A DNA stretch of 64,000 nucleotides, taken from the IMG/VR virus record IMGVR_UViG_3300032087_002150, positions 62,001 to 126,000 of that record; one strand, written 5' to 3'. Shown here one piece after another: positions 8,514 through 13,733 of this stretch (position 1 is its first letter; each line of letters begins with the position of its first letter). The notes below the pieces were generated by a model, which saw only the letters and a program-made list of their open reading frames with translations, ran no database searches and was not told the origin of the DNA. This DNA is from a virus. Both the position numbers and the translations under genes were made by a program.

Positions 8514-9146
8514 TTATGATATCTTGGATGCCACGACCTCAACAGTTTTACTTCCTTCTGTTCCAACTGCTGCGACTCCTAACACATAGGTTCCATTGAG
8601 ATCAGCATCATCGCCAGTTTCGCCACTAATTGTAAAACGAACAGAATTTGTTAGAAGTTGTTGTGAAGGAACCAACGTTTGGCTTGATCCAAGGGATTGT
8701 GTTACAGTCGGACCAGAGTTGGCGTCAACATATGCTTTTACTGCTGCTTGAGTTGCGATTCTTGTTGAACTATTCGCGGCAAGGTTGGCGTCATTATCCC
8801 ATCCTTCAACATTGATTGCCCCATCATTGAGATTGGCAAAAGTAAGGTCATCAACAGTGAGATTACCAAGGGATCCACCACTAGGACCAGAAAGTCCACC
8901 AGTGATTTCTGTACTACTGCCTGAAACAGAAAGACTTGCTCCTCCTGCTCCAGACAAACTACCACCAGATATTGTCACGCCACCAATGTCGCCTGTTGTT
9001 GCGGTCAGATCACCACTTGCTTGATCAAGAATAATGCTGCCAACGTTGGCGGTGACATCTGAAATGATTTCAGAACCATCGAAGTGCATCTCATCAGTAA
9101 AAAATTCTGATACTAACTCATTATCCAGTAAAGGGTTTCTTGGCAT
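8514..9146 (-). CDS. tail fibre-like virion protein
   Basis: 210 residues, Gly/Ser/Thr-rich and low in charge in the middle (GGSLSGAGGASLSVSGSSTEI), as in phage fibre shafts. The segment NSSTRIATQAAVKAYVDAN is a common phage-fibre linker motif. It is stranded among replication genes, yet it is preceded by a CTAAATA late-type motif, which fits late expression of a structural protein. GGAGG precedes ATG 9146. Probably a minor virion fibre or fibre tip; not assigned to a T4 gene. Confidence 0.65.
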   Translation of the reverse strand: MPRNPLLDNELVSEFFTDEMHFDGSEIISDVTANVGSIILDQASGDLTATTGDIGGVTISGGSLSGAGGASLSVSGSSTEITGGLSGPSGGSLGNLTVDDLTFANLNDGAINVEGWDNDANLAANSSTRIATQAAVKAYVDANSGPTVTQSLGSSQTLVPSQQLLTNSVRFTISGETGDDADLNGTYVLGVAAVGTEGSKTVEVVASKIS

Positions 9147-9164
9147 AACTTATTCCTCCGACAT

Positions 9165-9171
9165 TATTTAG
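9165..9171 (-). promoter_or_regulatory. late-type promoter motif CTAAATA
   Basis: The motif overlaps the stop codon of the upstream gene (GAC TAA ATA) and lies about 19 nt before the fibre-like gene. It matches the pattern seen before other virion genes in this window. Confidence 0.4.
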
Positions 9172-10016
9172 TCTTCAATGATCACGAAGTCTCTGCTCCA
9201 AGTCGGACCAGTTAGTGGATTAACCTTCTCATTAGAGTATGACCCATCCTCTTGTATAAACTTCATAGTGTCGAAAATATTTTCATCCAGTTTATATTTT
9301 GTATTGTTGGTGTTGCCGCCATTTCTAAAGAAGAACTGTTTACAGGCAGGATCTAGTAACTCGTATCCCATGCCTTTTTGACACATGTAAACTGTTTCTG
9401 ATAAACAAGTCTTATCAATATCAACCCTTGCTTTCGTTGGCGCCAACACTTGATAACCATCAAAATCTAGTAGATCTTCCCTCGTCTCCAGATACAACAT
9501 TGTGCCGAATGGACCAGAAACTCTGTGGTCCATATATGGGAAGTTATACAGTAAGTCAACAAACTTCTTGGCGTACCTTTCAGACAACCCATAGAACTCC
9601 ATACAAGTTCCTGGCATAAAAATATCAACCTCACCCCAATACTCATCTACCATGTAACGGAAACTTTCTTCGTTAATCAGGGCAGCGTCATGCTCCATGA
9701 TAGCGATAGGTTCACCAGCGGCGATGCGTTCAATCAACATCAGTTGAGAATGCATGATCGAGTTATGTATTTCGTTGTCGCAGAACGTACCACCAAAGAA
9801 CCTTGCGCGCAAGTAATCTTTCCCATCATCCTCTACATAGAACGGGATTGGTTCTTCGTTCTTTTGAAATCGAATCGGGAGAGTTTTGGGTGTCGTGCAT
9901 TGAACAGGCGTGATGTTAACTATGTCACGAACTGGTTCAAAAGATTTTAGAGAAAGGTCAAGATACCGCATTGACAATTCATTATCAAAGTCACATATTA
10001 TAAATGCTTCAATCAT
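9168..10016 (-). CDS. putative GT-A-type glycosyltransferase
   Basis: 282 residues. The N-terminus MIEAFIICDFDNE and the central EPIAIMEHDAALINEE resemble GT25/GT-A enzymes, in which a hydrophobic strand ends in an acidic metal-binding motif (here MEHDA). There is no signal peptide or membrane segment. It lies between RegA and the fibre-like gene, so it could modify a virion component or a host glycan. The family assignment is weak and the substrate is unknown. Confidence 0.45.
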   Translation of the reverse strand: MIEAFIICDFDNELSMRYLDLSLKSFEPVRDIVNITPVQCTTPKTLPIRFQKNEEPIPFYVEDDGKDYLRARFFGGTFCDNEIHNSIMHSQLMLIERIAAGEPIAIMEHDAALINEESFRYMVDEYWGEVDIFMPGTCMEFYGLSERYAKKFVDLLYNFPYMDHRVSGPFGTMLYLETREDLLDFDGYQVLAPTKARVDIDKTCLSETVYMCQKGMGYELLDPACKQFFFRNGGNTNNTKYKLDENIFDTMKFIQEDGSYSNEKVNPLTGPTWSRDFVIIED

Positions 10017-10025
10017 GATATAAGG

Positions 10026-10433
10026 TTAGTGCTTGACTCCTATGTTATATTTTGGGCAGAGTTCCCATTCACTTTTTTCTCGGAAAGAAACTACTTTGAT
10101 CTGACGAAGAGGTGCTTTGTCTGCTGCCTTCGATGAGTTGATGATGTTGACCAAACCCCAATCGCTCAGTAGAGTTGCGATTGTATTTCTTCGAGCAACG
10201 TCTGCCTCTTCCAAAGTTGCCTTTTTCCCATCCAGTAGGAATAATTCTTTGAAGTGTACAATAAAATACCTACCCTGTTTGTGCAGGATATGGCAAGATT
10301 GGAATAGTTTCTTTTCCTTTCTAGACGCTATTCCTATTCGCGTTAGTGTTTCGCGAACCTTTAGGAAATCGTCTGGTTCATTCAGCGTGACCTCCAGCAT
10401 ATCTGCTGGCGTCCATGATAGTACCTGTTCCAT
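10026..10433 (-). CDS. regA: RegA translational repressor
   Basis: RegA binds start regions of phage early mRNAs and blocks translation. The protein aligns along its length with T4 RegA: LEVTLNEPDDFLKVRETLTRIGIA, QSCHILHKQGRYFIVHFKE, RRNTIATLLSDWGL and the C-terminal KYNIGVKH. It is 135 residues from ATG 10433. T4 RegA begins at the equivalent of the internal Met at 10400, giving 124 residues, so that start is a real alternative although neither has a strong SD. It sits directly after gp62, as in T4. Confidence 0.92.
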   Translation of the reverse strand: MEQVLSWTPADMLEVTLNEPDDFLKVRETLTRIGIASRKEKKLFQSCHILHKQGRYFIVHFKELFLLDGKKATLEEADVARRNTIATLLSDWGLVNIINSSKAADKAPLRQIKVVSFREKSEWELCPKYNIGVKH

Positions 10434-10474
10434 ACAACGGATCCCATATATAAAGTTATACTTGTTATTTTCAC

Positions 10475-10493
10475 TGACAGGTTTATTCTGTCA
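10475..10493 (-). other. small hairpin in the gp62-regA gap
   Basis: TGACAG-GTTTATT-CTGTCA forms a 6-bp stem with a 7-nt loop in the leader of regA. There is no T-run, so it is not a clear terminator. It could affect regA translation or RNA processing. Confidence 0.3.
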
Positions 10494-10498
10494 TAGGT

Positions 10499-10879
10499 CT
10501 ATTTAGTGTTTTTCCCTCCTTTGAAAATCCTACTGGACAAGACCTTGAGATCATCTTCGCTGAACAAGTCTAAAACTGCTTCTGCTTTGGCGGTGCTGTA
10601 CCCATACACCTCTTTGATTAAGTCAATCGCATCTATTTTTTCTTTCTTCGCCCACTTACTAAATCGCTTCCTGGGTCTGATCGCATTACGGAGGAAGTCA
10701 AACTGTAGGCGACCATCAAGATGATGATTCCTGTTCATCTCGTTGGCAAGTAGGACGGTATCGCGGAAATAAGAAAGACCACGGTTTACCATGAACGAAG
10801 GATACTTGCTTTCGTTCTCGGCATCAAGCACATCTTTCTTACTGTGGTTTACGCTGTTCAGTACATCAAAGGGATTCAT
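10499..10879 (-). CDS. 62: clamp loader small subunit (T4 gp62)
   Basis: 126 residues, shorter than T4 gp62 (187). The segments KYPSFMVNRGLSYF, LANEMNRNHHL, LQFDFLRNAIRPRKRFSKWAK match the T4 gp62 family, with T4's PRGKRYGKWAK at the same place. With gp44 it loads the gp45 clamp. The gene order gp44, (insert), gp62, RegA follows T4 except that two extra genes, a 78-aa protein and the metzincin lipoprotein, separate gp44 from gp62. Confidence 0.85.
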   Translation of the reverse strand: MNPFDVLNSVNHSKKDVLDAENESKYPSFMVNRGLSYFRDTVLLANEMNRNHHLDGRLQFDFLRNAIRPRKRFSKWAKKEKIDAIDLIKEVYGYSTAKAEAVLDLFSEDDLKVLSSRIFKGGKNTK

Positions 10880-10888
10880 AATATAGTC

Positions 10889-12520
10889 TCAAAATAAACA
10901 GATTTCAGGATCTTCTTCGAAAGTTAATCCATCCATGTACATAGTCACTGGCGAGAATTGTAGACCATGCTCCAGTTCATGTAGTTGACTCATTATATAT
11001 CTCGTTCTCGCAATGGTCTCTACATTGTTTGTGGGTGGTGGTTGTTCTTCTGGTGGTAGTACGCAAAAACATCCACCCGTTGTTCCCATTTTTACTGATT
11101 GCCCAGCATACTCGCCTGCTTCGTCGGGATAAGTGCAAGTCAGATCATAGTTTGAGAACCTTCCAGTTGCTAGATCAGCATAAGACATGATTGTACCATA
11201 ACCACCATGTATGCCGTCATACTCTGGATTATCTTTATTTGGATTGTATCCTGGTAGATTGTATGCAAAGGAGTATTCAAATATTCCTGGTCTATCAGCA
11301 TCTTCCCATTCGTGTTGAGCACCTAGCAAATGACCAATCTCATGGGCGAACGTTTCATGTGCTCGTTCATAATATCTTGTAGATGCATTTTCTTGGAACA
11401 CACTATTATGGAAACACTGTGCGATGCCTCGAGTTTTACTCAAACCTTGTGTCGCGTCTAAACTAGCAACACCACACGCAATCGGATTTTCTGGTCTCTT
11501 TTTAAACAAGAACGCTATATCAGCGCCAACCTCTCGTTGCCAGTCGTCCAACCCATTAAACTCATAACGACCACCAAAGAATGCACTATACTGTCGATAC
11601 AAGTCACCTGGTGCTACTTCTACCAACTTGATACCAGCCAACCGAACCAAGGTCTTGGTACCAGAAGAAATATACATGTGATTTGATTCATAGATCTGTT
11701 TGTTCACGAACTCTTCAACAGTCATTCCGTCACGATCTTCTTCGGTGATGTTGGTATCAAACACAATCAACATATCAATCACAGCAGTCTCATACTGATC
11801 AGGATCGTAAGGGAAACTAACACCTGACTTCTGTTTTACACCATCACATGTCAGATAACCGTAACGAGAATCACCAGTGTCGGTAGGTGTGGTAGGACAA
11901 TCTTCTGGTTGTGTCATCTGCTCAAAGCATGTTTGATCGAGGTGTTCCAAACGGTCGGTATAGATGCCACCTTCACCATCCGCATAATCTTGTAGGCGAT
12001 CTTCTCGTAACAAGTGATTGATTCTTTCCGACACTATATCCAAATATTCTAGATCTTCCTCCAACTCAACAGCGCAATATGATTCTCCGATCGGCGTACC
12101 TTCTTCTGGTACAGCAGTCCAACCACATTCTTCGGAATCAGTATCTACAACTTCAGTGTAACTACCACCCTCGCCGTCAGCGAAATCCCTCACCTTGTCA
12201 TACTGTCCCAAGTTTTGTACACTGTTCAGTAGTTCTTGGAACCTCGTTTCAGAAGCATTCGCGCAATATGCATCACCCAAAGGTGTGCCGAACACAGGAG
12301 GAGCGACATATCCACACTTGGTTGAATCTGGAGTTTCTTCTTGAGTTGAACCACCATTACCATCGGCGATAGTTTGAATGAGCGTTGTACCGTCACAAGA
12401 TTCCTCAAGTACGGTTCCTTGTGCTGGGTTTGCTGGGGTGGTAATAGTCCCTTGATCATCAGAACTCCCACCGCCACCACAAGCAGTTAACAGTAGAAGC
12501 GGAAAGAGTATCTTTTTCAT
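10889..12520 (-). CDS. secreted lipoprotein with metzincin-type zinc protease domain
   Basis: 543 residues. The lipoprotein signal ends in LLTAC (Cys14), followed by a Gly/Ser tether. Residues about 40-200 hold three imperfect repeats of the form ADGxGGxYTE...C, rich in Cys. The C-terminal half is a zinc protease: AHEIGHLLGAQH at 392-403 is a full HExxHxxGxxH site, with a Met-turn GTIMSYAD about 40 residues later, as in reprolysin-like metzincins. It should be exported and lipid-anchored in the envelope. It is translationally linked to the 78-aa gene and lies between gp44 and gp62, which is odd for an envelope protein. Possible roles are host-envelope remodelling, exclusion or lysis. Confidence 0.8.
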   Translation of the reverse strand: MKKILFPLLLLTACGGGGSSDDQGTITTPANPAQGTVLEESCDGTTLIQTIADGNGGSTQEETPDSTKCGYVAPPVFGTPLGDAYCANASETRFQELLNSVQNLGQYDKVRDFADGEGGSYTEVVDTDSEECGWTAVPEEGTPIGESYCAVELEEDLEYLDIVSERINHLLREDRLQDYADGEGGIYTDRLEHLDQTCFEQMTQPEDCPTTPTDTGDSRYGYLTCDGVKQKSGVSFPYDPDQYETAVIDMLIVFDTNITEEDRDGMTVEEFVNKQIYESNHMYISSGTKTLVRLAGIKLVEVAPGDLYRQYSAFFGGRYEFNGLDDWQREVGADIAFLFKKRPENPIACGVASLDATQGLSKTRGIAQCFHNSVFQENASTRYYERAHETFAHEIGHLLGAQHEWEDADRPGIFEYSFAYNLPGYNPNKDNPEYDGIHGGYGTIMSYADLATGRFSNYDLTCTYPDEAGEYAGQSVKMGTTGGCFCVLPPEEQPPPTNNVETIARTRYIMSQLHELEHGLQFSPVTMYMDGLTFEEDPEICLF

Positions 12521-12756
12521 CAGTGTATAGTATCCTCAATATATGGTTGAGAAAGCACCCACTGTACATCGGGCAACATACGGTATGTGAAATGAGAACC
12601 GTAGATATCCTCAACCTTTATCAATTCTTCATGAGTAAAGTCTCGCATCAATCTATCAATTACAAGTTGCTGTACTTCAGTAGCGAGGGAATCAACTTTT
12701 AATCTTACGGATTCCACGTCGCTGTCAGTAAAATCGTAGTCAAACAAACTCGACAT
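12520..12756 (-). CDS. conserved-looking small protein, 78 aa
   Basis: It starts inside the 3' end of gp44 (17-nt overlap), and its stop touches the metzincin start. The product is acidic. It begins MSSLFDYDF, which loosely resembles clamp-binding peptides (RB69 polymerase ends in a similar SLF.xF pattern), but here it is at the N-terminus. No family recognised. Its position beside the clamp loader suggests a replication or late-transcription accessory role; this is inference. Confidence 0.6.
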   Translation of the reverse strand: MSSLFDYDFTDSDVESVRLKVDSLATEVQQLVIDRLMRDFTHEELIKVEDIYGSHFTYRMLPDVQWVLSQPYIEDTIH

Positions 12757-13678
12757 TCGCCATCATCTCCGTTAAACAAGCAACCATATTTAGTTCCGCA
12801 TCAGCAACGAACGCTGCCTTGTATTGATAATCCGCAAGGATTAGAACCAACTGAGGAATGCTGTTCGGCGCAACATACTGAGTCATAGCATCATAGATGC
12901 CACGGAAAATAGCAGCGGACTCAACGTCCATGTTATTGGCAACCCATACCCGCATGTTCTTGAAGTCTTTTTCTTTGATATAGGAAAACAACTCCGCGAT
13001 ACTTTCGCTGTTTGACTTACTGAGAACATCCAGTTGAAGTTCGCCGCCACGAGAGTGACGCTGAAGTTCGTTGATGATTCTTCGCCAGTCAGGAGCGTGA
13101 CGCATAATCAGTTCGGCGAGAACTTTTCCGTTATCAAGTTTGACGTTCTCTTGATCCAGAATAAACTTCGCTCGCTTCATAAACTGTTCGCAAAGTTTCG
13201 CCATGTCTTTCTTGCTGGTGTTAAACTCAATCACACCACAACGAGAATGGAGAGGTTCGATGATCTTGTTCTTGAAGTTACAAGTCAGAATGAATCGACA
13301 GTTCTTCGAGAACTCCTCGATAAACCCACGGAGAGCAGGTTGGGTTGACTGTGCATTCAGATAGTCTGCCTCATCAAGGATACATACTTTGTACCCGCCT
13401 GACAAGGAAACACTGGAAGCGAACTGTTTGATCTTACCACGGAGAGTGTCGATATTACCAGACTCCGAAGCGTTGATCAAGATATAGTCAAGGTCAAGCT
13501 CGTTACAGATAGCACGAGCAACAGTAGTTTTGCCAAGACCAGCAGTACCAGTTAGCAACATGTTCGGCACTTCGCCAGTGCCCACAATCTCTTTAAACTG
13601 TGCCTTCAAGTGATCTGGAAGGATACACTCATCAATCGTCTTCGGACGATACTTCTCAACCCACAATGATTCAACCAT
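12740..13678 (-). CDS. 44: clamp loader large subunit, AAA+ ATPase (T4 gp44)
   Basis: 312 residues (T4 gp44 is 319). The Walker A GTAGLGKTT (about 44-52), Walker B VCILDEADYL (about 97-106), sensor I ILTCNFKNKI and the arginine-finger block HSRCGVIEF are in the clamp-loader order. It begins LWVEKYRPKTIDE, the conserved RFC-like N-terminus. With gp62 it opens and loads the gp45 clamp. A near-consensus sigma70 promoter precedes it. Confidence 0.96.
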   Translation of the reverse strand: MVESLWVEKYRPKTIDECILPDHLKAQFKEIVGTGEVPNMLLTGTAGLGKTTVARAICNELDLDYILINASESGNIDTLRGKIKQFASSVSLSGGYKVCILDEADYLNAQSTQPALRGFIEEFSKNCRFILTCNFKNKIIEPLHSRCGVIEFNTSKKDMAKLCEQFMKRAKFILDQENVKLDNGKVLAELIMRHAPDWRRIINELQRHSRGGELQLDVLSKSNSESIAELFSYIKEKDFKNMRVWVANNMDVESAAIFRGIYDAMTQYVAPNSIPQLVLILADYQYKAAFVADAELNMVACLTEMMANVEFV

Positions 13679-13704: not shown

Positions 13705-13733
13705 ATTATACTAAATTTGCCGTTTCCAGTCAA
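13705..13733 (-). promoter_or_regulatory. sigma70-type promoter for gp44 operon
   Basis: Minus-strand TTGACT (13733-13728), 17-bp spacer, TATAAT (13710-13705), about 27 nt before gp44. It overlaps the 3' end of the GT2 gene. Confidence 0.8.

Follow-up and report, generated by a model that had tools for sequence, protein, structure and literature searches.

The gene described here raises the question of why a phage would encode an exported protease among its replication genes, and what such an enzyme would do in the envelope of its host. The window (the whole 64,000-nucleotide stretch that was analyzed) belongs to a virus record of 151,660 bases from a marine relative of phage T4, and the order of the genes on its minus strand is gp44, a 78-aa ORF, the protease, gp62, regA, a 282-aa ORF, a 210-aa ORF, and gp43. 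The initial annotation had described the protease as a metzincin lipoprotein that is inserted into the clamp-loader operon, and had proposed that it is expressed early and acts at the cell surface.

Domain organization of the protease

The ORF at 10889-12520 (-) has an ATG start and encodes a 543-aa protein; because members of the same family are encoded by 35 further contigs, the ORF is not a chance reading frame. The N-terminus of the protein, MKKILFPLLLLTACGGGG, is a short signal peptide with the lipobox LTAC (lipobox cysteine C14). The corresponding DNA segment (12464-12520, -) covers the signal peptide, the lipobox (MKKILFPLLLLTAC, C14), and the start of a Gly/Ser-rich linker. A lipobox was present in every full-length copy of the family that was scanned, and the residue at position +2 after the lipobox cysteine is Gly or Ser in the relatives, with the exception of Asp in contig L027. 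The protein is predicted to be exported and lipid-anchored.

Three Cys-paired ADGxGG repeats, as originally described, are located at approximately residues 35-203 (11912-12418, -), with the DGxGG motifs at approximately residues 53, 115, and 181 and one cysteine pair in each. The relatives carry one to three repeats. Besides the lipobox cysteine there are 14 cysteines in the forms with three repeats, 12 in those with two, and 11 or 12 in the one-repeat forms, and only two full-length relatives depart from an even number (12 or 14). An even cysteine count that drops with the number of repeats fits disulphides in an exported protein.

The metzincin (reprolysin-like) catalytic domain spans approximately residues 245-457 (11150-11788, -) and contains the zinc motif HEIGHLLGAQH (HExxHxxGxxH, H393-H403), with the Met-turn GTIMSYA (M445) located downstream. 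An alignment of 21 family sequences shows no variation at the zinc ligands or at the Met-turn methionine. The domain scored 44.3 bits against Pfam Reprolysin_4 (PF13583; cut-off 22, 2e-11), and it also exceeded the cut-offs of Reprolysin_3 and Reprolysin_5 (PF13582, 35.9 versus 22.4 bits; PF13688, 34.1 versus 27). The C-terminal extension (10889-11149, -) carries GGCFC, PPPTNN, and a terminal ICLF that are invariant or nearly so across the family, the last being kept as ICLF or ICMF. By these sequence tests the product is a metzincin, and the description of it as an exported metzincin lipoprotein stands. The lipid anchor, the Cys-paired repeats, and the intact zinc site together support a presumed role in envelope proteolysis.

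In the AlphaFold model, the repeat region is formed by beta structure with a pLDDT of 69-91 by block. The model of the catalytic domain is weak (mean pLDDT 52, with the N-subdomain mostly at 66-86) and was used for topology only. The best Foldseek match of this domain was CpaA (6o38; 1.7e-5), followed by adamalysins, with E values of 1.7e-5 to 1e-3 for a model whose pLDDT is only 52. The full model, in which only the repeats are confident, matched proteins of uncultured phages. The repeats had no family match in Pfam or PHROGs, and none were found in phage records by tblastn. Given the confident fold and the presence of the repeats in unrelated proteins of other phages, the suggestion that they constitute a module separate from the protease domain is supported. 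A pattern scan identified the YADGxGGxYxE repeat, often Cys-paired, in unrelated uncultured-phage proteins on L101, L102, L107, L114, L123, L129, L154, and L156.

Genomic context and expression in the window

Both flanking genes were identified by profile matches. Upstream lies gp44, the clamp-loader large subunit (12740-13678, -; phrog_168, 1e-115), and downstream lies gp62, the small subunit (10499-10879, -; Phage_clamp_A 1.5e-14, phrog_225 7e-41), followed by the translational regulator regA (10026-10433, -; profile match). The position between gp44 and gp62 was thus described correctly, except that the 78-aa ORF (12520-12756, -) also sits between gp44 and the protease. This ORF is present in all clamp-loader loci sequenced on that side, its stop codon overlaps the protease start as TGATG, and it has no lipobox and no match to any family profile. 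The 210-aa ORF before gp43 (8514-9146, -) is represented in L024 and L037 by a different-looking ORF of 376-378 aa and appears to be another swapped gene.

A putative early promoter, TTGACT-17-TATAAT, precedes gp44 (13705-13733, -). This sigma70-like sequence recurs without change in every clamp-loader relative compared. The preceding gene does not include the -10 box, but the -35 box falls in coding sequence. Between approximately 2.8 and 38.8 kb of the window, the coding strand contains no T4-type late motif (TATAAATA). Because this promoter is conserved and the late motif is absent nearby, it is likely that the protease is expressed early together with the clamp loader, as had been proposed. 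The only RNA element found in the window was a tRNA. The sole SleB gene found in this phage is far off, close to the opposite end of the record, so that the endolysin does not adjoin the protease and SleB was ruled out as its partner. No lipoprotein gene adjoins the protease in the window, and no TIMP-like partner was recognized.

Distribution of the family and its loci

The 35 relatives are IMG/VR contigs that were collected by scans, and they are approximately 56-77% identical to the window protease at full length, with the exception of a near-identical copy of the window's virus. Their neighborhoods were sorted into six locus types, A to F. In locus A (11 contigs), the order is gp44, orf78, protease, gp62. 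In locus B (10 contigs), the protease directly follows a SleB-type cell-wall hydrolase or endolysin (PF07486, 1e-27), the SleB stop and the protease start usually overlap, and isocitrate lyase comes next in four; this locus, too, is within the cluster of replication genes, and gp44/gp62 precede it by a few kb. Locus C (6 contigs) follows a lipoprotein gene and small ORFs, and there the protease faces either major-capsid genes or a gene for a TonB-dependent receptor, or is followed by isocitrate lyase. Locus D (5 contigs) follows a MazG-like gene, and in L029 lysozyme-like and Rz-like spanin genes are located upstream on the other strand. Locus E is found on two large contigs (217 and 340 kb). 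In locus F (one contig), the protease precedes a gene for a fatty acid desaturase.

An insertion between gp44 and gp62 was recovered in 11 of the 35 relatives. A tblastn search of 50,697 phage records returned no relative of the protease at an E value of 0.01 and only unrelated weak matches at an E value of 10. In the nearest isolate, C48C1, the protease is missing and gp44 directly overlaps gp62. In other marine T4-like phages the gp44-gp62 gap holds a dioxygenase (Mosig) or small ORFs; because of this other cargo, the gap is, judged from the genomes compared, a recurrent cargo place. In Pelagibacter phage Mosig, the gene in the gap encodes a Fe2OG dioxygenase (L018, 5942-6511). The idea that the clamp-loader position itself is a clue to function was abandoned, since the family also occupies five further locus types, its alleles have been exchanged between the types, and the gap is variable and holds other cargo elsewhere.

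Outside phages, one genome scan returned no close cellular homolog, and a second with a motif pattern returned only three generic reprolysin-like proteins (17-19 bits); both used a short pattern by which distant cellular kin may be missed. The sole match among plasmids was a Xanthomonas reprolysin-like protein with 27% identity.

Several companion genes recur near the relatives. L028 encodes a 952-aa phage TonB-dependent receptor (9005-11863, -) that is convergent with the protease and carries a ParB-like domain at its N-terminus (Plug 4e-14, barrel 1e-33, ParBc_2 2e-4); the same gene occurs on L026 and L027, and the Plug domain also in records G014, G015, and G016. The receptor was ruled out as a constant partner because it is absent from the window's phage. 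Isocitrate lyase is located directly after the protease on L004 (4347-5594) and on L023, L032, L063, and L003; the isocitrate lyase of C48C1 is 77% identical and is annotated as hypothetical.

Selection and allele exchange

The dN/dS of the protease is mostly 0.09-0.2 across the family, with 0.5 on few changes in one very close pair, and these low values indicate purifying selection. The exchange of alleles is best seen in pairs of contigs with nearly identical backbones. In L024 and L037, gp44 is 100% identical (dS 0), regA is near-identical, and gp62 is 95-100% identical. The proteases of this pair have a dS of 0.35 and contain 3 and 2 repeats, and identity in windows falls to 40-65% in the repeats and returns to 95-100% at gp62. 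Similarly, in L023 and L032 the flanking SleB gene is approximately 97% identical (protein 98%) and isocitrate lyase is 89-100% identical (protein 100%), and the proteases between them share 60% protein identity (55-78% by nucleotide window, about 70%).

Exchange between loci was observed as well. The proteases of L032 (endolysin locus) and L033 (clamp-loader locus) are 85% identical, and the gp44 proteins of the two contigs are strongly different. In a tree built from the catalytic plus C-terminal part, the window allele is placed beside L021 of the endolysin locus, and a single clade of clamp-loader alleles was rejected (AU p=1e-47). By these comparisons the gene is a cassette that has been repeatedly swapped, into the same site and between loci. 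The protease is not the only hypervariable gene in these comparisons, as strong divergence also affects a few others in the same regions, such as orf501 (about 50%). The orf501 gene (L004, 422-1927, and relatives), the second with such hypervariability, lies near the endolysin locus and is 49-61% identical where most of its neighbors are about 88-98% identical.

Comparison with known systems

In terms of its domain, the window protease resembles the M12B/reprolysin-like metzincins (PF13583; NCBIfam Mep72) in its HExxHxxGxxH motif, its Met-turn, its score above the Pfam cut-off, and adamalysin-like fold matches of a low-confidence model, but its score against Mep72 is only about 30 bits (cut-off 645). 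In contrast to these enzymes it has a lipid anchor, a phage repeat stalk, and a conserved C-terminal extension. The CpaA glycoprotease of Acinetobacter (6o38), which has four tandem repeats (PMC7542363), is likewise exported and also places tandem beta repeats before a metzincin domain. However, CpaA is bacterial and secreted, and it has four Ig-like repeats and the chaperone CpaB, whereas the window protein is encoded by a phage, is a lipoprotein, carries Cys-paired ADGxGG repeats, and has no recognized chaperone.

The Mtz-Tim pair of Listeria was the only system found in the literature searched on phage metzincins and peptidase cargo. It is encoded downstream of holin and lysin genes in prophages and sensitizes cells to lysis (PMC8235301). 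The two systems share a phage metzincin that is thought to act on the envelope and, in some relatives of the window protease, an adjoining endolysin. Mtz-Tim belongs to a Gram-positive prophage and consists of a secreted protease with a separate lipoprotein partner, whereas the window protease is itself a lipoprotein and no partner was seen. No case that combines a lipid anchor and a phage repeat stalk with the repeated exchange of alleles in T4-like phages was found in the literature searched.

The closest logic is that of outer-membrane exclusion lipoproteins such as Llp of phage T5, which functions in superinfection exclusion (PMC9586334); these lipoproteins, however, only bind. Llp and Cor are phage outer-membrane lipoproteins, and exclusion is the use proposed for the window protease. 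They are small blockers with no enzyme domain, whereas the window protein has 543 aa and a metzincin domain. No superinfection-exclusion lipoprotein is known to be a protease, and this counts against an exclusion role for the window protein.

Possible functions of the protease

The lipobox, the repeats, the zinc motif, the Met-turn, the operon position, purifying selection, allele exchange, and the multiple loci were read from the sequence, and from these we infer an early timing, an outer-membrane location, proteolysis, a target, and a purpose. The explanation that we tentatively prefer is a lipid-anchored envelope protease that is made early and alters the host surface, by superinfection exclusion or receptor shaving. 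The gp44 promoter would drive early synthesis of the protease, which would then be exported, receive its lipid at Cys14, and be transferred to the outer membrane, where the disulphide-bonded repeat stalk would hold and aim the protease domain, which in turn would clip selected envelope proteins of the infected cell. The most likely use would be to remodel the cell surface against competing phages. The gene would be interchangeable cargo: a given site holds different alleles in different phages, and one type of allele occurs at different sites, which is expected if the target of the protease differs between hosts. Early timing and allele exchange thus favor a variable surface target and hence exclusion or receptor shaving, although the high recombination could reflect general phage mosaicism.

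If an early enzymatic outer-membrane protease is confirmed, it would give a lytic phage a means of altering the host surface that is distinct from the receptor blocking of the known exclusion lipoproteins. A fuller version, which is possible but more doubtful, is a surface-remodeling device in which a lipid-anchored metzincin with an exchangeable binding stalk cuts receptors off the infected cell and excludes competitors, and is diversified as marine T4-like phages repeatedly swap its alleles with one another and from one locus to another. The natural pairs with near-identical backbones, different alleles, and different repeat counts make the question of which surface proteins are the target, and of whether this is set by the allele, directly testable. 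In these uncultured phages, a hypervariable cargo gene moves between the clamp-loader operon and other sites.

An accessory role in lysis, in which the protease cuts envelope proteins such as the ties between the outer membrane and the wall and thereby speeds the action of endolysin and spanin, as in Mtz-Tim, is also only a possibility, one nearly as likely as early surface proteolysis. The endolysin-linked position of 10 of the 35 relatives points to lysis and counts against exclusion; in L039, moreover, an Rz-like spanin gene precedes the endolysin and the protease, and the Mtz-Tim precedent points the same way. However, the distance to the SleB gene in the window's phage, the 11 relatives whose gene lies in the clamp-loader operon, where no late promoter motif was found, the absence of a recognized TIMP-like partner, and a hypervariability that lysis genes do not need all argue against this role.

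It is improbable that the protease scavenges nutrients by freeing peptides at the surface in the course of a prolonged infection of a marine host that is short of nutrients. The neighbors and genome mates, which include phage TonB-dependent receptor genes, isocitrate lyase, and fatty acid desaturase, suggest metabolic or uptake cargo, but the TonB receptor plug family is absent from the window's phage, the surface protease of one cell would also feed its neighbors, and allele swapping is not predicted. A component of the virion or its assembly, or a protease acting on phage particles instead of the host envelope, is very unlikely: the ADGxGG repeat does occur in other uncultured phage proteins that are possibly structural, but every full-length relative has a signal peptide and a lipobox, the gene lies among replication genes, and head genes adjoin it only in part of one locus type.

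Additional features of the relatives

IscU genes are present in some relatives, and viral IscU has been linked to gammaproteobacteria and SAR86 (PMC5332604). This hints at gammaproteobacterial hosts for some relatives and does not extend to the window's phage, which lacks IscU. In L043 (record G018), gp44 contains one in-frame TGA that leaves a 214-aa ORF, either a sequencing error or a real truncation. Lastly, L003, L008, L026, L027, L028, and L031 carry a late-like motif, AATAAATA, approximately 60-75 nt before the protease start, and in this same locus type an inverted repeat (ATGTAC...GTACAT) extends over the ribosome site and may act as a translation switch.
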